From positions 124,001-188,000 of the forward strand of contig NZ_FQXT01000003.1 of NCBI RefSeq assembly GCF_900130045.1: DNA of 64,000 nucleotides, given 5' to 3'. Shown one piece after another: positions 24,829-46,776 of this stretch (its first letter is position 1; the number at the start of each line of letters is the position of its first letter). The notes under the pieces are model-generated. The model had not been told where the DNA came from. It ran no database searches and worked only from the letters and a program-made list of their open reading frames with translations. The DNA is from Leeuwenhoekiella palythoae. Its GTDB lineage: Bacteria > Bacteroidota > Bacteroidia > Flavobacteriales > Flavobacteriaceae. Position numbers and translations under genes: made by a program.

Positions 24829-26089
24829 ACAAAGAGTAGTTATTACGGGGCTGGGAGTCTGCGCTCCTAACGGAGTAGGCGTTCCTGCTTTTAAGGAAGC
24901 GCTTGAAACCGGAAAAAGCGGAATTCGATTTTACAGCGAACTCGAGAAGCTTAAATTTTCTTGTCAAATAGGAGGGATGCCGCTAATTTCAGAGGCGGTT
25001 AAAACAAAATACTTTACACCTTTACAACTGCGCAATTTTAATTCCGCAGGGATTTTATATGGCGTGGTTGCAGGAGTTGAAGCCTGGCAAGATGCGCAGC
25101 TTCCTACAGATGAGGAACAATGTGATTTTGACAGCGGAACCGTATTTGGTGTTGGTTCTCTGGGTGTTGATAAATATCGGGAAAGCATTTATAAAATTGA
25201 CGAAGGAAATACCCGAAGGTTAGGTAGTACCAGCGTGCAACAAACGATGAGTAGTGGCGTAAGTGCCTATCTTGGCGGAATGTTAGGTTTGGGCAATTTG
25301 GTGACTACAAATTCTTCGGCGTGTACTACGGGAACTGAAGCTATTTTGATGGCCTACGAGCGCATCAAAGCCGGAAAAGCTAAACGGATGCTTGCAGGAA
25401 GCACTAGCGATGGCGGCCCTTATGTTTGGGGAGGTTTTGATGCTTTGCGTATTTTGCCTTCCAAGTATAACGATAAACCTACGCAAGCATCACGACCACT
25501 GGCAGGCGATGCGGCAGGATTTGTTCCCGGTTGTGGTGCAGGCGCCTTAGTACTTGAAAGTTTAGAAAGTGCGCAACAAAGAGGCGCAAAAATCTATGCT
25601 GAAATTTTAGGCGGAAGCAGCAACAGCGGTGGGCAGCGTAATGAAGGTTCGATGACTGCTCCAAATCCTATTGCTGTTAAGCGTTGTATTGAAGATGCAG
25701 TGGTGGATGCACAGATCAGCACAGCACAGATTGAAGTGATCAATGGGCACCTTACCGCAACTTCAAAAGATGGATTAGAGATCAAGAATTGGAGCGAAGC
25801 CTTAAAACGCTCTGGAGTTGACTTTCCGTACATCAATTCATTAAAGGGAATGACCGGCCATTGTCTGGCAGCTTCCGGGAGTATAGAGTGTGTCGCTTCG
25901 GTATTAGAATTAAAACATCAATTTTTATTTCCTAATATCAATTTACATACGGTTCACGATGAAGTACTTGAGCATATTTCAGAAAGCAAAATTCCAAGGG
26001 TAAAAACCGCTTTAAAATTTAATTATCTGGCAAAAGCTAGTTTTGGTTTTGGCGATGTCAACTGTTGTCTTATTTTTAAAACTTTTTAA
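24821..26089 (+). CDS. Beta-ketoacyl synthase (KAS I/II-like)
   Basis: A 422-residue condensing enzyme with the full Cys-His-His triad: Cys168 in NSSACTTGTEA, His310 in INGHLTATSKDG and His347 in MTGHCLAASGS, plus Lys342 in SLKGMTGH. The usual HGTxT around the first His is changed to GHLTAT. It extends acyl chains on a carrier protein. Overlap with the dehydratase gene and the carrier-protein gene 27 bp downstream make a compact set; no ketoreductase, acyltransferase or thioesterase is present, so these steps would come from the main fatty-acid system. Confidence 0.9.
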   Translation: MSKQRVVITGLGVCAPNGVGVPAFKEALETGKSGIRFYSELEKLKFSCQIGGMPLISEAVKTKYFTPLQLRNFNSAGILYGVVAGVEAWQDAQLPTDEEQCDFDSGTVFGVGSLGVDKYRESIYKIDEGNTRRLGSTSVQQTMSSGVSAYLGGMLGLGNLVTTNSSACTTGTEAILMAYERIKAGKAKRMLAGSTSDGGPYVWGGFDALRILPSKYNDKPTQASRPLAGDAAGFVPGCGAGALVLESLESAQQRGAKIYAEILGGSSNSGGQRNEGSMTAPNPIAVKRCIEDAVVDAQISTAQIEVINGHLTATSKDGLEIKNWSEALKRSGVDFPYINSLKGMTGHCLAASGSIECVASVLELKHQFLFPNINLHTVHDEVLEHISESKIPRVKTALKFNYLAKASFGFGDVNCCLIFKTF

Positions 26090-31677: not shown

Positions 31678-32124
31678 ATGGAACAACAACTACATGAAAA
31701 CTTCTTAAGAAAAGCCATTCATTGGGCTAGGCAAGGAAAAGCCAGCAAAGGAGGAGGAGCCTTTGGAGCAGTCATCGTCAAAGATGGAATCATCATCGCA
31801 GAAGGTCATAATAGCGTAGGGGCCAGTACAGATTGTACCCAACACGCAGAACTAGCGATGATTCAACAAGCTTATGTAAAAATGCGAACTAAGAGTCTAA
31901 CAGGGTGTATTTTATATACCAGTTGTGAGCCGTGCTTAATGTGCCTAGGAGCCACGCGCTGGGCCGAACTTGATGCTGTTTATTATGGTGCATCTGCGAC
32001 AGATGCTAAAGAAGCCGGTTATATTTATAGCGATCTGTTTTACAATTCGCATAGCGGAAAGAGACATCAAGAATTTAAACTCAAGCAACTGCTACGCGAC
32101 GAAGCCGTAGCCGTATGGAATTAA
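31678..32124 (+). CDS. Nucleoside/cytosine-type deaminase
   Basis: A 148-residue zinc deaminase. The catalytic motif is HAELAMIQ (H-A-E, about residues 60-62), and the second zinc motif is TSCEPCLMCLGA (P-C-x-x-C). A glycine-rich N-terminal loop (GKASKGGGAFGAVIVKDG) marks the guanine/tRNA-deaminase branch, and the C-terminus resembles guanine deaminases less closely than the paralogue at 34.8 kb. The substrate (guanine, a cytosine analogue or another base) is not decided. It is 4 bp from the FNT gene, with which it is probably co-transcribed. Confidence 0.85.
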   Translation: MEQQLHENFLRKAIHWARQGKASKGGGAFGAVIVKDGIIIAEGHNSVGASTDCTQHAELAMIQQAYVKMRTKSLTGCILYTSCEPCLMCLGATRWAELDAVYYGASATDAKEAGYIYSDLFYNSHSGKRHQEFKLKQLLRDEAVAVWN

Positions 32125-32128
32125 TACT

Positions 32129-32974
32129 ATGAGCGAAGAAGAAGTAAAACAAGAAAACATAGACAAGGAACTTGAGAAATCTGAAGTTTCTGAAGATTCG
32201 CAGGCCAAAAGTCACGGCGAAATCCTCAAAGAGCAAATTTGTGAAGGAAAAAAAATATACACGCTAAGCACCAGCAGTGTTTTGGTAAGTTCGCTCACAG
32301 CAGGTTTAGAGCTGGGTTTCAGCTATATGATGCTGTGTAGTGTATTTTTCCATTTTTCAGATTCCTTTAGCGATTCAACCCTGTTTAAATTGATCGCGCT
32401 GGTGTATCCATTAGGATTCATTTTGGTTGTTTTAGGGCAGTCTATCTTATTTACAGAACAAACCTCTTTATTGACACTTCCGGTATTAAATCGAAAGCAC
32501 AGCTTAATGAGTTTACTACGTATTTGGGGACTTGTAATTTTTGGGAATTTACTAGGAGGGTGGTTGATCGCTTTGGTATTGATGTGGATCGGGCCACAAT
32601 TAGGAATTTTTGAGGTGGAAACTATGGTCAGCATTGGCGACCACGTAGCCCATTATACATTACCAGTCATCTTAGTCAGCGCAATACTTGCCGGCTGGAT
32701 GATGGGCTTGCTATCTTGGTTGGTGACTTCGTCTAAAGACACGGTAAGTCGCATCATCATTATCTTTCTGATCACTGCTACTATGGCTTTTGTAGGATTG
32801 CATCACAGTATAATTGGGAATATTGAAGTGTTTTGTGCTTACGTGTTGGGAGATGAGATCAGTCTGGGGCGTTATGTATGGGTACAATCTACTGCGCTGA
32901 TCGGTAATGCGATTGGAGGTGCATTTTTTGTAGCCTTGCTTAAATATCGCGCCTTTGTCAATAATGTGAATTAA
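32129..32974 (+). CDS. Formate/nitrite transporter (FNT) family channel
   Basis: A 281-residue membrane protein with a charged N-terminal extension (about 1-45) and six transmembrane helices. The family signatures are FTEQTSLLTLPVL (about 111-123) and GLHHSIIGNIEVF near 220, equivalent to the G-F-x-H-x-x-x-N motif. Relatives carry formate, nitrite, hydrosulfide or other small anions; this branch resembles YfdC-like members of unknown cargo. It follows the deaminase by 4 bp. Confidence 0.85.
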   Translation: MSEEEVKQENIDKELEKSEVSEDSQAKSHGEILKEQICEGKKIYTLSTSSVLVSSLTAGLELGFSYMMLCSVFFHFSDSFSDSTLFKLIALVYPLGFILVVLGQSILFTEQTSLLTLPVLNRKHSLMSLLRIWGLVIFGNLLGGWLIALVLMWIGPQLGIFEVETMVSIGDHVAHYTLPVILVSAILAGWMMGLLSWLVTSSKDTVSRIIIIFLITATMAFVGLHHSIIGNIEVFCAYVLGDEISLGRYVWVQSTALIGNAIGGAFFVALLKYRAFVNNVN

Positions 32975-39956: not shown

Positions 39957-40703
39957 CTAATACCGTTCCACCAATTGATTGTCTTTAAACAACGCTCCAA
40001 CAAAATTATTCTGTTTCATATTTACGAGAATGTATTGTCCGTCTGCTTTTGGACCTACCGAAATATAAGCGGCTTCGTTTGCTCCATTATCGGTCATTGT
40101 AATACTGAATTTAAAATATGGCGTATGTTGTTCGGTCTCTAATGGTGGCATAAAAAAGTCTGATGTCTTGGTCTCGATGTGCATCATCTCACCATAGGTA
40201 AATCTTCCGTTTTCAAACTTTCCCGAAATAATAGTGTTGTTTTGGAAATAGATCCCGTAATCGTCAATACAATCCCCAGAAATACACGTAGCATCTGCAA
40301 TATCCTGAGGCGTGAAGGTTTTACGACTAAGCACTTGCCCCTGATCGTAGCTGATCAATTCTCTTGAAAACCCTTGTGAAGAGCGCACCTCTCTGATGTG
40401 ATCTCCTATTTTAATTCCTTTTTCAAACAGGCCTGAGGTTCGTCCTTCCCCCTCATCGTATACGGTAAATCCGTCTGGTTTACCCTCTTTAAAGTTGGAA
40501 TAATAATAATCACTGGTTTTATTCTGGCTATAGCCTACACCGTTATACAATCCATTTTTATAGAAACCGTGGTATACATCGCCGGTTTCTTTATTGTAAT
40601 AAAAGCCGTAACCGTTTTGGCAATCACCTTTAGAACATGGCGTTTCTTGTGCAAAACTTACTGCGCACAGAAAAAATAAACTGCTTAAAATAAGTGTTTT
40701 CAT
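39957..40703 (-). CDS. Secreted protein with MORN-like repeats
   Basis: A 248-residue protein with a signal peptide ending SFAQ. Two similar Cys-rich segments, CSKGDCQNGYGFYY and CISGDCIDDYGIYF, start two units, and the part between shows MORN-like beta hairpins (GDVYHGFYKNGLYNGVGYSQ, then FKEGKPDGFTVYDEGEG). MORN-type repeats often serve as protein-binding or membrane scaffolds. The gene has a TAGCTTTA -7 box and the shared 16-bp motif upstream, the same arrangement as the CHAT gene. Function unknown. Confidence 0.7.
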   Translation of the reverse strand: MKTLILSSLFFLCAVSFAQETPCSKGDCQNGYGFYYNKETGDVYHGFYKNGLYNGVGYSQNKTSDYYYSNFKEGKPDGFTVYDEGEGRTSGLFEKGIKIGDHIREVRSSQGFSRELISYDQGQVLSRKTFTPQDIADATCISGDCIDDYGIYFQNNTIISGKFENGRFTYGEMMHIETKTSDFFMPPLETEQHTPYFKFSITMTDNGANEAAYISVGPKADGQYILVNMKQNNFVGALFKDNQLVERY

Positions 40704-40757: not shown

Positions 40758-40807
40758 TAAAGCTATAAAGGATGCCGGCACTCTTCAATACGGCAGTTGC
40801 CCTATTT
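40758..40807 (-). promoter_or_regulatory. Promoter and shared 16-bp motif of the MORN-like gene
   Basis: On the minus strand AAATAGGGCAACTGCC (40792-40807) lies 26 bp upstream of the -7 box TAGCTTTA (40758-40765). The motif overlaps the stop codon of the CHAT gene. The start codon follows 54 bp from the -7 box. It is one of three copies in the window. Confidence 0.65.
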
Positions 40808-43675
40808 ACCAGTGTAGATGAACGGTGCCCAGTATTGCGGACTCGACAGGTCTACATATTTATTGTAAGAACCTTTAATAAATTCGCGTTTGACTTCAGT
40901 GCTGGCGGTGAGATAGTCTTTATTTTCCTGAAAAATCTTGTAATAAAGACTTTTGGTATAAACACTAGTCCCGTAGTCATTAACAGACCAAAGTGTGGTT
41001 AAAGTAGCATTAGCTCCCGCCATTAACATAGCCTGATTAAGACCTTGAACCCCATCTCCCGGAACCAATTTCCCCAAACCGGTCTGGCAGGCACTGAGAA
41101 ACATAAAGTCGGTATCAATATCAAGTTGGGCCATTTCCTTTACGGTGAGCATTCCGTCCTCCCCATCTTTTGGATAACTAAACACCGAAAATGCGATCCC
41201 GCTAAGGTCAAAAACAAATGGATGTGTTACCGCATGACTTGATAAATGAATGCTTCGGTAGTGGTGCAATGCTCCTTCCCTACTCATTTTTTTAAATTCG
41301 TTTTCGGTCATTTGAGTATCCAAACGCAAATCGGTTTTTGGCACCAATTCTTTTATCGCAAGCACTTCATCTTTTGCGCCTTTCAGGTATTTCATGGCTT
41401 CGCTAGAAAAGGTTGCAAATGCATAATCTAAAGGTTCGTTTTTCTGTAACGATTCTTCCACGTCAAGCTCTAAGCGTTTAATATCTGCAGCCGATTCTAA
41501 ATCACGCCCGGGATTGGCCCGCTTTTGATATTTAGCATCGCCAAAGGCAAGCACATTCTTCTCATAATTGGTTTTAGGTCGCTTGCGCAATGTAATAAGT
41601 GTACTGCCGGCAGGAACATAGCCTATTTCATAATCTTCTACGAGATAACGCCCTTTATTGTTTTTAAAACTTTCAAAAGGCAGAAAATGCAACACACCAT
41701 CTGCCGCAATGTAAATACGTTTTTTACCTTTAAACCAAGGTTCTATGCGGCTCATCATATCGATGAAAAAAGAGTTAGCAATATAATCTCTATAGGCCGT
41801 ATCCGTATATTCTTCACGTACCTCACCGCCTTCGTTAGGGTTTAAAAAATTGCGATACAGTTCTGCCAAAAGCACAAAATCACCCTTCTTGTATTGATTA
41901 AATCCTGCTTCATCCAGATTGCGGTATACCGTATATTTTGGTTGACGTAATTCGCGTTGCGCCATAGCCTTCTCGATGGCTCCAATTTCTGTATTACGAT
42001 CTACATAAACCCGCATTAAAGCTCCTATGGTATTTATATATCTATAATTTATGTCGTTCTTGGTAATCACCGCAGCCATATAAACACCTTCATTGACATT
42101 ACCGCGCATCACATCAACATAATAAACCAAGGCCTCGTCAGCTTTTAGGCCATGCTGAATTTCACTAAGGCTTAGCGTAGGAATTTCATCTTGTGACGCG
42201 AGTAATCCATTAGCTTTTAACTCCTCCATTACAGAGAATATTTTTTCTTTCTGATTACTCTCAAAAAGGCAAGCGATCAGGTTTCCTCCTATTTTAGTAA
42301 AAAGATCAAGCTGCGCAGTACGTTGTGATCCTGTTGTTTCGCTGACTTTCGGCTTTTGACGTTTGAAAGCTTTTTCATAAAAAGGAACTGCTTCAGCATA
42401 TTTTTTCTTCATTCCCAACTGCAAACCATAATCATACAATTCAATAATATCTGTGGAATTAATATTGGTTTCAATGGCTACTGAGTTATCCTTATAAAAT
42501 TTTAGGGATTGAAGATTGCTAAGCAGGGTTTTACCAAATTGAGGATGCTCTTCATAACCGTTTTGTTTCATATAGTTTACACCAGCTTCTGCATACTGAA
42601 GTCCTTTCTCTTTATCCCCGCCATAGGTCAAGGCCCTCGAAAGATTATAATACCCCATCATTTTAACATCGGGATTTGTCACCTTGTTCATAAAATTCTG
42701 AGCACCTTCTGCCAGCTTATACGCCTCTTTATAGCGCTCTAATTGCACTAATGAAAACAGCTGATTGTTTAAAGCTAGCATCAAGGTCGAATTGGAATAG
42801 GTGAATTGCGGTAGCTCATTACGCATAATGACTGCAAGAGTGATATTCTCCTCATAATTTCTATTTACCTCATTGATTTTTGAAAGAATATCGTAGAGCT
42901 TAAATTTCATCATCGGAGCAGTTTTAGGATTTGAAAACTGCAGTTTAAGCTCCGGAATTAATACGTGTGCTTGTTGCCAATTATTCCAAAATGTAATCAA
43001 AGCAAGGGTTTCTAAGGCTACATTGTAATAACTTACCGGAAAGTTACCAGCGTCCATTTGCTGTTTTACAGGTTCTAATACTTTCAAATAATGCTCTGGA
43101 CCTTTTTGAATAATATCCTTTGGAGAAGCGCTGTATATAGGATTAAACTTTTCCCAAAAAACCATCATATTCTTTGAAGCCTCAGCTTTATAAACATCGA
43201 GCATACGTTGCGCTTGTTGTACTTGTGAAGTCGTAAACGTTTTTTTATAATAATTAACCGCCCCTTCTAAGTACGTTACAGATCTTTTGAAATCCTCCGG
43301 CGGATGCGGATAAAAACTGTATTCCCAAAGCAGTTGCTTAGCTCGTGGTAGATCTTTGGCAAAAAAAGCATAAGCAATAGCAGATTGCGCCAAACGATCG
43401 TAAATAGGTTCCATATCATAGGCCGTCTGAATGAGTTGTGCTCCTATAATCGGTTCTTGAGACAAAGCAGCTCTCGAGATCCCTACTTCAAAATAGAGGT
43501 CTGTATTAGTATAAAAAGCATCTAGCAACTTGAAGCCTACATTAAAGGCCTCCTTGTTATTGCCCGCCTTTTTTAAGGCTGTAAATTTGGTGTAATTTTG
43601 ATTCTTATTGATGTCGTAAGGTCCTTGCGCCCATAATGAAGAGCTAAAGACGAGCAATAAAACTAATATTCTCAT
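40802..43675 (-). CDS. TPR-CHAT protein (caspase-like protease)
   Basis: A 957-residue protein with a signal peptide (MRILVLLLVFSSSLWAQ), so it is exported. About 30-480 are tetratricopeptide-like helices (KEKGLQYAEAGVNYMKQNGY and similar); the last 300 residues form a CHAT domain. The catalytic His is His814 in LSSHAV and the catalytic Cys is Cys863 in FLSACQTGLG, and a WSVNDYGT segment follows. CHAT proteases of the caspase clan cut proteins when their TPR part senses a partner, as in type III-E CRISPR systems and gasdermin defence, but this one is exported and has no gasdermin or CRISPR gene beside it. It carries the shared upstream motif. Confidence 0.88.
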   Translation of the reverse strand: MRILVLLLVFSSSLWAQGPYDINKNQNYTKFTALKKAGNNKEAFNVGFKLLDAFYTNTDLYFEVGISRAALSQEPIIGAQLIQTAYDMEPIYDRLAQSAIAYAFFAKDLPRAKQLLWEYSFYPHPPEDFKRSVTYLEGAVNYYKKTFTTSQVQQAQRMLDVYKAEASKNMMVFWEKFNPIYSASPKDIIQKGPEHYLKVLEPVKQQMDAGNFPVSYYNVALETLALITFWNNWQQAHVLIPELKLQFSNPKTAPMMKFKLYDILSKINEVNRNYEENITLAVIMRNELPQFTYSNSTLMLALNNQLFSLVQLERYKEAYKLAEGAQNFMNKVTNPDVKMMGYYNLSRALTYGGDKEKGLQYAEAGVNYMKQNGYEEHPQFGKTLLSNLQSLKFYKDNSVAIETNINSTDIIELYDYGLQLGMKKKYAEAVPFYEKAFKRQKPKVSETTGSQRTAQLDLFTKIGGNLIACLFESNQKEKIFSVMEELKANGLLASQDEIPTLSLSEIQHGLKADEALVYYVDVMRGNVNEGVYMAAVITKNDINYRYINTIGALMRVYVDRNTEIGAIEKAMAQRELRQPKYTVYRNLDEAGFNQYKKGDFVLLAELYRNFLNPNEGGEVREEYTDTAYRDYIANSFFIDMMSRIEPWFKGKKRIYIAADGVLHFLPFESFKNNKGRYLVEDYEIGYVPAGSTLITLRKRPKTNYEKNVLAFGDAKYQKRANPGRDLESAADIKRLELDVEESLQKNEPLDYAFATFSSEAMKYLKGAKDEVLAIKELVPKTDLRLDTQMTENEFKKMSREGALHHYRSIHLSSHAVTHPFVFDLSGIAFSVFSYPKDGEDGMLTVKEMAQLDIDTDFMFLSACQTGLGKLVPGDGVQGLNQAMLMAGANATLTTLWSVNDYGTSVYTKSLYYKIFQENKDYLTASTEVKREFIKGSYNKYVDLSSPQYWAPFIYTGK

Positions 43676-43695
43676 AGATCGCAGTTTTTACGATC

Positions 43696-43746
43696 TAAAA
43701 ATAGGATTGGATTCTATGAGCAATCAATACGGCAATTGCCCTATTT
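43696..43746 (-). promoter_or_regulatory. Promoter and shared 16-bp motif of the CHAT gene
   Basis: On the minus strand AAATAGGGCAATTGCC (43731-43746) lies 27 bp upstream of the -7 box TATTTTTA (43696-43703), with the ATG 20 bp further on. The motif overlaps the stop codon of the MsrA gene. It contains the 10-bp palindrome GGCAATTGCC. Confidence 0.65.
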
Positions 43747-44232
43747 GAGACGATTACTATATTGTTTTAAGAGAAACTGAAGTTTTGGAGCAATATAGCG
43801 TTCACAAAATGGCTTCTCCGGATTGCTTCGGTAATAATCGTGCAGGCTCTCTCGCGAAGCTTGAAAACGCTGGAAAGGCAAAATTTGAGTAATTAAGGAT
43901 TGTTCAAATTCATTTTGTAACTGCGTAAGAATGTGCTGTACCTCTCGTTTTTGTTCTTCGGTAAAACAATAAACCGCAGAACGGTATTTAGACCGAAAAC
44001 TATGATTTGAAGTGCTTTTATGCGTGTGCAAGTGAATCTCAATAAGAATCTCTAAAGAAATAATTTGTGGATTAAAATGAATGATCACGCCTTCTGAAAA
44101 TTCTTCAAAAGGTGGGTCTGAAGCAACATATCCTTGTTCTACTTTCTCAACTCCTTTTAAGGCTTGGAAGACTGCTTCGGTACACCAATGGCAACCGCCA
44201 CCTACAGCTATTTTTTCTAATGAATTAGTCAA
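43741..44232 (-). CDS. msrA: Peptide methionine sulfoxide reductase A
   Basis: A 163-residue MsrA that reduces the S form of methionine sulfoxide. The active-site Cys14 sits in VGGGCHWCTEAVFQAL, where the usual GCFWC has His in place of Phe. The GYVASDP and KYRSAVYCFTEEQ segments (equivalent to QYRSxI) are present, but the usual TGHAEVV and HDPTT stretches are degenerate, so this is a divergent member. It is the last gene of the SelO operon and overlaps the 84-residue gene by 8 bp, a link that makes sense because SelO modifies redox proteins under oxidative stress. Confidence 0.85.
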   Translation of the reverse strand: MTNSLEKIAVGGGCHWCTEAVFQALKGVEKVEQGYVASDPPFEEFSEGVIIHFNPQIISLEILIEIHLHTHKSTSNHSFRSKYRSAVYCFTEEQKREVQHILTQLQNEFEQSLITQILPFQRFQASRESLHDYYRSNPEKPFCERYIAPKLQFLLKQYSNRLK

Positions 44233-44479
44233 TAATTCTTACTTCTTTTAAAAACGTAATCACTTTTAATTCCGGCATTTCGCAAGGTTTCAGCAATTCA
44301 CCCATTTTAGTCTCGTAATAATTAAGGCTAATGAAATCAGTTCCTCCCAACTCTTTTGCGTAAATCTTTGTGCTTTTACCTTCGTTGAAATCGGTACGGG
44401 TTATACTGTACTTCCGGTTGTTATAAAATCCTTCGGAATATCCCTCGGGAATGCGTGATATTGTGGATTTAAGTTTCAT
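44225..44479 (-). CDS. Small conserved protein of the SelO-MsrA operon
   Basis: An 84-residue protein starting MKLKSTISRIPEGYSEGFYN. It is beta-rich with no known motif; the GGTDFISLNYYET and LLKPCEMPE stretches look conserved. A start four codons earlier (44491) is possible, but the ATG at 44479 shares a base with the SelO stop (TAATG), which argues for coupling. It also overlaps the msrA gene. A role in oxidative-stress repair is inferred from context only. Confidence 0.7.
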   Translation of the reverse strand: MKLKSTISRIPEGYSEGFYNNRKYSITRTDFNEGKSTKIYAKELGGTDFISLNYYETKMGELLKPCEMPELKVITFLKEVRIID

Positions 44480-46041
44480 TACGAACTGCACGAAAGCATA
44501 GAACAGCCTACCTTATCTCTCGCCCATTCGGGACGCTTGGCATACCATTTTTCGTATTCTGGTTGGTCATCATAGGGTTTTTTTAGTAGTTGATACAATT
44601 CGTCGATCAAGCTATAATCTCCTTTATCAGCGGCGTCAATCGCCAGCTGCGCCATATAATTGCGCAACACGTATTTAGGATTGGTCGCATTCATTGCTTT
44701 CTTACGCGCTTCATCGCTTTGTTGATCTTGCTGCAAACGTGTTGAATAGGCTTGAAACCACTGCTTCCACTGGTTTTGTATTTTTTCTGAAATCTCTTCA
44801 GTAGTATAAAAAGCTTCCGAAATCAATGTCAATCCATCAACTGAAGCATCCTTTTTAAAATCTGCCAGTTTTCTAAAGAAAATGGTCATATCAGTTTCTG
44901 TTGCTTGAAGACATTCCTCGAGATCTGCTATAAGTTGCAGATCACTTTCCTCAGGCGCCTCAAGACCCAATTTGTCCGCCATCATTTGAAAAGATCTCTT
45001 AGCATAGTCTTCTTTGTACCGATCTAAAATTTCTTCAAAACCGTCTGCCTCCTCAACAAGTGGATAAAGCGCATTGGCCAATTGATATAAATTCCATAAG
45101 CCAATATTAGGTTGGTTTCCGTAGCGATAACGCTTGTGTTGTCTGTCGGTCGTATTGGGCGTCCAGCCCCATTCAAAACCTTCTAACCAACCGTAAGGTC
45201 CGTAATCTATGGTAAGGCCGAGAATTGACATATTATCGGTATTCATAACGCCGTGTACAAAGCCCACCCGCTGCCAATGAATGATCATCTCAAGCGTGCG
45301 CTCTGAAACTTCAGCAAAGAACTTTAAGTAGTTTTCTTTAGAAGAAGCATCCAACTCTGGAAAGTAGTTTTCAATGGTAAAGATTACCAATTTTTGCAAT
45401 CCCGCAATATCATTGCGCGAAGTAAAAATCTGATAATTCCCAAACCGAAGAAAAGAAGGCGCCACCCGACAGACAACAGCTCCTTTTTCATACGCCGGAT
45501 TACCATCGTACATTACATCACGTAAAACCGAATCTCCCGTCAATGCTAAAGACAACGCACGCGTAGTTGGGATTCCCAAATGATGCATCGCTTCACTCAT
45601 TAAATATTCACGAATACTTGAGCGTAAAACTGCTAGGCCATCAGCAGAGCGTGAATAAGGCGTCTCCCCTGCTCCTTTGAGCTGCAATGCCCAATGCTTA
45701 TTATCGTTATCGATCTCAAATAGATTGATCGCACGACCATCTCCCAATTGTCCTGCCCAATGTCCAAATTGATGGCCGCCATACAACATAGCGTACGGAT
45801 GCGTATCCGGTAAAACCGCATTTCCTGTAAAGACTTCTAAGAATTCCTTGCTTTCAGCCTCTTCTTCTGATATTCCTAAAGCATTCAACATTTCATCAGA
45901 AACGTGCAGTAGTTGCGGCGCTGCAGTTTCCTTAGGAGATACAAAAGAGTAATAACCCTGCATAACCTGTCTTCTTGAGTTTTCAAAATTAGGATCTGCC
46001 GGAAGCGCTTCTGTAAAAAGGTTATTGATGTTAAATTGCAT
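44479..46041 (-). CDS. selO: SelO-type protein adenylyltransferase
   Basis: A 520-residue pseudokinase-fold enzyme that transfers AMP from ATP to target proteins and has known links to oxidative stress. Visible landmarks are GGHQFGHWAGQLGDGRAI (near 105-120), the QLKGAGETPYSRSADG nucleotide loop, and the HGVMNTDNMSILGLTIDYGP stretch with the metal-binding Asn and Asp. It ends in SCSS, with Cys518 in the place where eukaryotic SelO has selenocysteine three residues from the end. The family was first called YdiU/UPF0061. It heads an operon with a small protein and MsrA. Confidence 0.92.
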   Translation of the reverse strand: MQFNINNLFTEALPADPNFENSRRQVMQGYYSFVSPKETAAPQLLHVSDEMLNALGISEEEAESKEFLEVFTGNAVLPDTHPYAMLYGGHQFGHWAGQLGDGRAINLFEIDNDNKHWALQLKGAGETPYSRSADGLAVLRSSIREYLMSEAMHHLGIPTTRALSLALTGDSVLRDVMYDGNPAYEKGAVVCRVAPSFLRFGNYQIFTSRNDIAGLQKLVIFTIENYFPELDASSKENYLKFFAEVSERTLEMIIHWQRVGFVHGVMNTDNMSILGLTIDYGPYGWLEGFEWGWTPNTTDRQHKRYRYGNQPNIGLWNLYQLANALYPLVEEADGFEEILDRYKEDYAKRSFQMMADKLGLEAPEESDLQLIADLEECLQATETDMTIFFRKLADFKKDASVDGLTLISEAFYTTEEISEKIQNQWKQWFQAYSTRLQQDQQSDEARKKAMNATNPKYVLRNYMAQLAIDAADKGDYSLIDELYQLLKKPYDDQPEYEKWYAKRPEWARDKVGCSMLSCSS

Positions 46042-46113
46042 AAATCAGAATTTGTAGGATATTGGTTTGGTCGGTTTATTTAATGAAACTTATCAAATAG
46101 TATCCTAAATACA

Positions 46114-46146
46114 AAAGTCCGATCACAAACCTTGTGATCGGACTTT
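46114..46146 (-). terminator. Terminator of the Hcp-like gene
   Basis: A perfect 15-bp stem starting AAAGTCCGATCACAA (46114-46128) pairs with 46132-46146 over a 3-nt loop. The minus-strand T run is short. Confidence 0.7.
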
Positions 46147-46168
46147 AAAAAACATGAAATTATGGCTG

Positions 46169-46702
46169 TTAACTCCCTGTGCGCAGTGCATACTCAAATT
46201 CGACTTCTTCTTCTAACCTTCCGTTGTTATTGAATTGTTTATACAAACTGTTTATTTTTTCAAAAGACAAGGTCCAATATTCTTGAGGTTTTGAATCCTT
46301 TTCATTTGCTTCCATCTTAAATGATGTGATCCTAACATTGTCTAACTCGTAAATAAGATAGTCGTTGATTCCGCCAGATGAATTTGTAGAAAAGGTTAGA
46401 ATTACATTACGCAGCGTTTTATTTCTTGCCAGAAAATCAAGCATCGTATTGCTCGCAAGGTCGGTATTCTTGCCAATGCTAATCCCTGAAAATGACGTGC
46501 GGGCGCGGGTTCTTCCTGACAAAGCAGCATCGGGAATACTAACTTCCCATGAAACTTGAGTTAACTCAATCTCCTCTTCGTGTCCTTGCTGTTGAGATTC
46601 TCCTTCAATATCCGGAAGTTTAAGATACATACTTGTTTGTGCATTCATTGTGGCAAACCCCAATAAAACCATTAAAATTAAAGTGATGATCGTACGTGCC
46701 AT
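46169..46702 (-). CDS. Hcp-like protein with a Sec signal peptide
   Basis: A 177-residue protein. After a signal peptide (MARTIITLILMVLLGFATMN, cleaved near AQ) it follows the Hcp beta-barrel pattern of type VI tube proteins: MYLKLPDIEGESQQQGHEEE, then IELTQVSWEVS, the FSGISIGKNTD loop, and a C-terminal YWTLSFEKINSLYKQF with VEFEYALRTG. ATGs at 46729 and 46726 would start earlier, but the -7 box TAATTTTG at 46727-46734 overlaps them, so 46702 is chosen. No type VI genes (VgrG, TssB, TssC) are in the window. Whether it forms a tube outside the cell is unknown. Confidence 0.75.
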   Translation of the reverse strand: MARTIITLILMVLLGFATMNAQTSMYLKLPDIEGESQQQGHEEEIELTQVSWEVSIPDAALSGRTRARTSFSGISIGKNTDLASNTMLDFLARNKTLRNVILTFSTNSSGGINDYLIYELDNVRITSFKMEANEKDSKPQEYWTLSFEKINSLYKQFNNNGRLEEEVEFEYALRTGS

Positions 46703-46726
46703 AAGTCGTTCGGTTTTTGATTTCAT

Positions 46727-46776
46727 CAAAATTAGCGGGAACGTAATTGAATTTAAGCAGGGGAATAACCCTATTT
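46727..46776 (-). promoter_or_regulatory. Promoter and shared 16-bp motif of the Hcp-like gene
   Basis: On the minus strand AAATAGGGTTATTCCC (46761-46776) lies 26 bp upstream of TAATTTTG (46727-46734). A longer imperfect hairpin (GGGGAATA, then TATTCCC) extends around it to 46791. Confidence 0.65.

Follow-up and report, generated by a model that had tools for sequence, protein, structure and literature searches.

We analysed a 64,000-nucleotide stretch of the Leeuwenhoekiella palythoae genome (contig NZ_FQXT01000003.1, positions 124,001 to 188,000; 'the window'), in which three minus-strand genes for exported proteins, encoding a MORN-repeat, a TPR-CHAT and an Hcp-family product, each lie behind a promoter box and a short upstream element. 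The MORN protein (248 aa, 39957–40703) and the TPR-CHAT protein (957 aa, 40802–43675) have N-termini that resemble signal peptides by eye. Pfam assigns the latter to PF12770 (1e-43), and it carries HLSSHA at 810 and SACQTG at 861, which we take to be the His and Cys motifs expected of this domain; domain and motifs together place it among the predicted CHAT proteases. The third gene is listed as an open reading frame at 46169–46729 and its product matches Hcp (PF05638). These two identities from the preliminary description thus have Pfam behind them, whereas that of the MORN protein stands by fold search only: a Pfam scan, MORN model included, returned no match to the window protein, and an AlphaFold model (predicted local distance difference test score 87.4) found Morn1 proteins as its top PDB matches (best E 9.2e-9, with global template-modelling scores of only 0.35/0.42). 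The Pfam MORN model does match a Gilvibacter homologue that is 27% identical.

A 16-bp motif had been proposed to precede all three genes, and reading and pattern search both found it on the minus strand at each of the three places. The underlying element is a 16-bp palindrome, TASGGCA-WW-TGCCSTA, of which the motif first described spans only the first 13 of 16 bases. Before MORN it reads TAGGGCAACTGCCGTA (40789–40804, one mismatch), followed by the −7 box TAGCTTTA (40758–40765); before CHAT it reads TAGGGCAATTGCCGTA (43728–43743, no mismatch), followed by TATTTTTA (43696–43703). The constant distance to the box was borne out, at 23 bp past the site for MORN, 24 bp for CHAT and 23 bp for Hcp. 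So was the overlap with upstream genes, the operator's TAG being the stop codon of CHAT in the MORN operator and of MsrA in the CHAT operator. One and the same palindrome thus precedes both MORN and CHAT; the Hcp site is a different element, with no GGCA/TGCC core.

To determine how often the palindrome occurs, we searched the genome (4.03 Mb, 14 contigs) with its 18-mer version, ATASGGCAWWTGCCSTAT, using the reversed pattern as a control. Two perfect matches and three with one mismatch were returned, compared with none in the control at that level. Besides the two in the window, these five good copies comprise three on contig C7: before the gene of an exported PQQ-propeller protein (31685–31702), before that of a DUF6252 lipoprotein (32371–32388) and before that of a response regulator, hereafter RR (25634–25651). 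In all five, a TAnnTTTG box (at least five of six positions) starts 23 bp past the 16-bp palindrome (24 for CHAT), where the chance rate for such a box, taken from the window's plus strand, is 1.9%. At three mismatches the genome holds 29 matches against 15 in the control. Ten of the 24 weaker sites were inspected, and none has a box at +23/+24 on either strand, with one at +22; a two-mismatch palindrome at C8:575147, which lacks a −7 box and falls within a gene of GNAT-like appearance by eye, was set aside. The 16-mer of the preliminary description is a poorer probe. Its three exact matches in the window carry no proof, because the pattern was derived from these same sites; it has one further exact match in the genome (C7:31689). 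At up to three mismatches the window contains eight matches, within chance (shuffle mean 5.74; 22 of 100 shuffles reach eight), and at two mismatches the genome yields 23 on each strand, whereas the reversed control yields 13 forward and 14 reverse. Since over half of these may be noise, the palindrome was used in its stead. A one-mismatch match of the earlier motif at C8:103663, inside a coding sequence, was likewise discarded.

The gene of the response regulator (G000:C7:24809-25456) was recognised by domain search as NarL/LuxR (GerE)-type, with a receiver domain (PF00072, 1.3e-22) and a C-terminal GerE domain (PF00196, 5.4e-18). It has residues D10, D56, T84 and K106, presumably those of the phosphorylation site, and these do not vary among the 17 sequences aligned. 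Two genes upstream lies a TPR-HisKA_3 histidine kinase (HisKA_3, 2.6e-11) with an N-terminus that resembles an export signal by eye, a TPR-like region at 73–334, a hydrophobic segment at 341–359 and the H-box His at about 403. This layout would be FimS-like: export signal, periplasmic TPR block, transmembrane segment and cytoplasmic kinase. The pairing recurs beyond this genome. In loci from about 20 named genera (79 from the best 80 matches of a contig scan, 78 counted), a histidine kinase-like gene is found among the seven open reading frames upstream of RR in 74 of 77.

The palindrome is conserved in RR promoters themselves. Among 40 RR loci—several from close relatives and one being a 46% relative—24 have it at up to three mismatches within 250 bp upstream of RR (dinucleotide shuffles: mean 0.29, maximum 2) and 13 at up to one mismatch (shuffles: 0), whereas the first 250 bp of the RR gene itself gave none in 40. 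The named loci contain 102 sites at up to two mismatches, 93 of which have a gene of at least 75 aa starting 30–230 bp downstream, and in 79 of these 93 the −7 box stands at exactly +23. The 93 targets comprise DUF6252 (22), RR (22), small proteins resembling that encoded ahead of the kinase (6), histidine kinases (4), PQQ (3), MORN (2) and others (34). Leaving RR aside, 58 of 71 targets pass a crude export-signal rule, compared with 543 of 1266 genes of at least 100 aa in the same loci.

Inspecting the recognition helix of RR revealed a further correspondence. In the 30 named loci with a PST helix there are 51 sites at up to one mismatch, against 0.1 in shuffles, and in the 15 loci with neither this nor an xGT helix there are six, against 0.0. 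With sites chosen solely for their symmetry, outer TA and box, position 3 of the half-site was C in 24 of 24 cases with xGT helices, while among the 40 with PST helices 18 had C, 14 had G and 8 had A; the CA..TG core was kept in 38–39 of 40 half-sites at PST-type loci. Helix type and operator bases thus covary, as they would after a change of specificity, but the helix types may simply be clades.

Within the genus, the palindrome and RR are co-inherited. RR is present in 10 of 13 genomes, and all ten carry the 18-mer at up to one mismatch, with 1 to 6 palindromes each; none of the three genomes without RR has it at that level, and a looser search for RR there gave relatives of 33–35% identity in two and none in the third (81% complete). 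DUF6252 is present in exactly the same ten genomes. MORN occurs in five of 13 genomes in six copies, five of them with the palindrome, and the CHAT genes adjoining MORN in those five genomes also carry it. In five genomes (G003, G006, G010, G002 and G001) the PQQ position is held by an exported protein of 355–356 aa with the same operator. The second MORN-CHAT set of G004 (L090:6600-10272) has its CHAT frame in pieces, the first of which keeps the operator. In the wider family, CHAT at E 1e-100 was confined to the own genome (1 of 249 genomes, with the best three or fewer candidates per genome scored).

The association extends to the family. Among 60 relatives, a site is found in 12 of 15 RR-positive genomes versus 3 of 45 RR-negative ones (Fisher 1.2e-7). 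One of the 12, G049, has an RR only 46% identical and two sites far from it; with this genome not counted as RR-positive, the figures become 11 of 14 versus 4 of 46. Across 249 genomes searched with the 16-mer at up to one mismatch, at least one site occurs in 45 of 62 RR-positive versus 79 of 187 RR-negative genomes, and three or more in 21 of 62 versus 17 of 187; in those last 17, a looser search for RR found a best relative of 46% identity. Promoter geometry separates the two groups. Of 42 sites at up to one mismatch in 20 loci of RR-positive genomes (the own genome, nine others of the genus, G024 and G017), 37 have the box on one strand; none of 11 sites read from seven RR-negative genomes has one at +22 to +24 on either strand. 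G013 supplies four of these 11, and a single repeated block contains three of the four. Stray 16-mers are common by chance, and promoter geometry is the mark of real sites. The repeated block of G013, ACTAGTGGATATACGGCATTTGCCGCATAAC, holds its three palindromes at L112:4283, L113:4639 and L114:4476; one adjoins an open reading frame that resembles a tyrosine recombinase by eye, and the block is possibly a mobile-element or integron-like recombination site.

Because the RR gene and several exported-protein genes carry the palindrome in many relatives, it is very probably the site of RR. We consider it very likely, with a probability of roughly 85%, that the palindrome is the operator of an autoregulated RR–kinase two-component system, most likely acting as an activator site, and RR is very probably the binding protein, a strong candidate regulator. 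A phosphorylated RR, with the nearby TPR-HisKA_3 kinase as the putative phosphate donor, would bind TASGGCA-WW-TGCCSTA as a dimer centred around −42, where it would adjoin the upstream side of the −33 region in a promoter of sigma-ABfr type (TAnnTTTG) and activate transcription. In this genome it is predicted to control the genes of MORN, CHAT, the PQQ-propeller protein and the DUF6252 lipoprotein as well as its own, the last implying positive autoregulation; Hcp would stand outside, under a related but different regulator. A regulon defined by its site and consisting mainly of exported products was thus rightly anticipated, with a membership other than the trio in the window: the operator of Hcp is not the same, and PQQ, DUF6252 and RR on another contig belong instead. 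As read from these genomes, the regulon is real and wider than first described, and RR is a strong candidate for its regulator, for which the preliminary description had named no protein.

Several observations weigh against this assignment. Sixteen of the 40 RR promoters have no palindrome. An open frame of at least 120 codons ends within 60 bp of RR in 10 of these 16, versus 1 of the 24 with a site, and RR may therefore be transcribed from a promoter further upstream there; the other six are not explained in this way. In G004, G005 and G002, RR follows NrtR without a site, and the second MORN copy of G004 has no palindrome. The 33 named loci with an xGT helix yield only eight sites (0.2 in shuffles), and the RR-positive genomes G017, G021 and G027 have no 18-mer site at one mismatch. 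At family scale, 17 of 62 RR-positive genomes have no 16-mer at one mismatch and the 79 RR-negative genomes noted above do, so that the 16-mer alone is not specific. Kinship among the genomes, finally, means that the P values overstate the association.

The same regulator might also control Hcp through a weaker site, which we regard as unlikely. The Hcp site, TAGGGTTATTCCCCTG (46758–46773), occupies the same place relative to its −7 box, TAATTTTG (46727–46734), with a different sequence; because this box overlies the first codons of the listed frame, translation probably begins instead at the ATG at 46702. All seven Hcp-bearing genomes of the genus are RR-positive, and TAGGG-N6-CCCTG-like sites, sharing TAGGG with the palindrome and likewise with the box at +23, precede four of the seven Hcp genes (own, G011, G003 and G010). 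Yet the best fit of the own site to the palindrome has four mismatches, these four sites have four to five, and none has the CA..TG core that PST half-sites keep almost without exception. The Hcp loci of G004, G005 and G002 have neither this site nor a box at that place, although their proteins are no more diverged than those of G003 and G010; the Hcp genes of G010 and G004 contain internal stops. Three of the six other Hcp relatives in the genus carry Hcp's own version of the site, and the own locus (46727–46773) together with L151, L152 and L156 displays a common AGGG-N6-CCCT site at equal distance to the −7 box. Hcp is therefore placed outside the palindrome regulon, probably under a sister GerE regulator whose promoters are built alike, and the pattern suggests a sister regulon of Hcp-family loci with another GerE regulator. 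A search of the own genome for further copies of the Hcp site found no such regulon (the Hcp site alone at no mismatch and two at one, compared with five and seven in the reversed control).

That RR blocks these promoters, the palindrome being a repressor operator, is improbable. Position by itself does not decide the matter. Still, the palindrome is centred some 31 bp ahead of the −7 box, around −42, and its distance from that box is rigid in about 20 named genera, an arrangement typical of activators that make contact with RNA polymerase. In many sites a TTG adjoins the palindrome where a sigma-ABfr −33 element would be, and spacing, centre and TTG together argue for an activator that would touch RNA polymerase. 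The part of the promoter survey available to us, from which the −7 and −33 consensus was taken, reports no −33 motif in Flavobacterium johnsoniae (PMC7366714), and the argument from the adjoining TTG is weak for that reason. FimR, the regulator of the system nearest in layout, is an activator, at least in the portion of the report drawn on here (PMC1974823). An activator-like position, suggested earlier from the three window sites, is thus supported by genome, genus and family data, with the centre near −42.

There is a slimmer chance that another LuxR/NarL-type protein binds the palindrome and that RR is merely a co-inherited target. A first look at the own genome gave 51 RR-like candidates; the RR-negative genomes with a 16-mer at up to one mismatch are numerous; and both G049 sites have the box at +23, before exported-looking proteins, where the nearest RR is the 46% relative. 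Against this stand the palindrome in the RR promoter, the clustering of sites around RR in the named loci, the joint absence of RR and sites from three members of the genus, the covariation of operator and recognition helix, and the missing box at all 11 RR-negative sites read. NrtR, a NUDIX-winged helix protein encoded between kinase and RR, was rejected as the common regulator, being nearly excluded by gene content: it is adjacent in most Leeuwenhoekiella loci read and near RR in only one of 77 named loci, where the palindrome is nonetheless widespread.

With respect to known systems, the probable RR operator has a pair of inverted half-sites, each of 7 bp, separated by 2 bp, like the 7-2-7 sites of NarL, and a HisKA_3 kinase paired with a GerE response regulator is also found in NarX/Q-NarL/P, LiaSR and UhpBA. 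It differs from NarL-type systems in operator sequence and targets, and RR is not an orthologue by cut-off (best NCBIfam match NarL, 127.8 bits against a cut-off of 250). Closest in layout is FimS–FimR of Porphyromonas gingivalis, a Bacteroidota two-component system: according to those parts of the sources available to us, FimS is a sensor kinase with TPRs in its periplasmic part (PMC11053733) and FimR activates a fimbrial, exported-protein gene by direct promoter binding (PMC1974823). The kinase described here falls far short of the FimS model (79.7 bits, cut-off 600) and scores higher, though also below cut-off, against UhpB (97.6 bits, cut-off 408). The targets scanned included none recognisable as fimbrial, and the source portions cited give no operator for FimR. 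For Bacteroides thetaiotaomicron, the accessible part of PMC7366714 describes PM2, a near-palindrome located ahead of transcription starts; it resembles the present element in being an upstream near-palindrome in a Bacteroidota species and differs in that its elements lie at −10 and −30 and form a second promoter motif, while here a canonical TAnnTTTG box follows the palindrome.

The effectors behind the operator vary by genus, with CHAT and MORN in Leeuwenhoekiella and a papain-family cysteine protease in G024, where the operator precedes an exported-looking papain-family (C1) plus DUF4384 protein (L093:4351-5916). One exported family reaches across three lineages and two classes: its members of 356 aa in Leeuwenhoekiella (L102:5800-6870), 336 aa in Flagellimonas (L214:6923-7933) and 323 aa in Roseivirga, of the class Cytophagia (L215:5997-6968), are 33%, 33% and 51% identical over 164–325 residues, and each gene stands behind a palindrome with the box at +23. 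The Roseivirga site of this family has two mismatches, and two further Roseivirga sites have one. Neither the 356-aa nor the 323-aa protein has a Pfam match. A fold search with the DUF6252 protein gave no match at E 0.001 (the best, LpqH at 4.2e-3, was not used). Its nearest NCBIfam family is that of Riean_0653 (48.6 bits, cut-off 57), a Riemerella protein involved in haemolysis and not itself a haemolysin, according to the available part of PMC7881567; a function drawn from this likeness was dropped as too remote.

Systems of this kind are known; a literature search of titles and abstract starts, with subscription papers mostly outside it, yielded no description of this operator or its set of targets. 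To our knowledge, little has been established for Flavobacteriaceae about the DNA sites to which stand-alone response regulators bind. In the present case, about 20 named genera allow site, promoter geometry, probable regulator and target list to be read jointly, and exported proteins of unknown function—DUF6252, MORN, CHAT and the 356/336/323-aa family—gain a regulatory context. Tentatively, the whole may be an envelope-surveillance system of Bacteroidota, in which the ligand of the kinase's periplasmic TPRs would be a peptide or an exported protein that has misfolded, and a self-amplifying RR would switch on a varying set of exported products, namely repeat proteins together with cysteine proteases such as CHAT in Leeuwenhoekiella and papain-like C1 in G024. 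If so, a conserved sensor and operator would be coupled to fast-changing surface effectors, from Flavobacteriia to Cytophagia.

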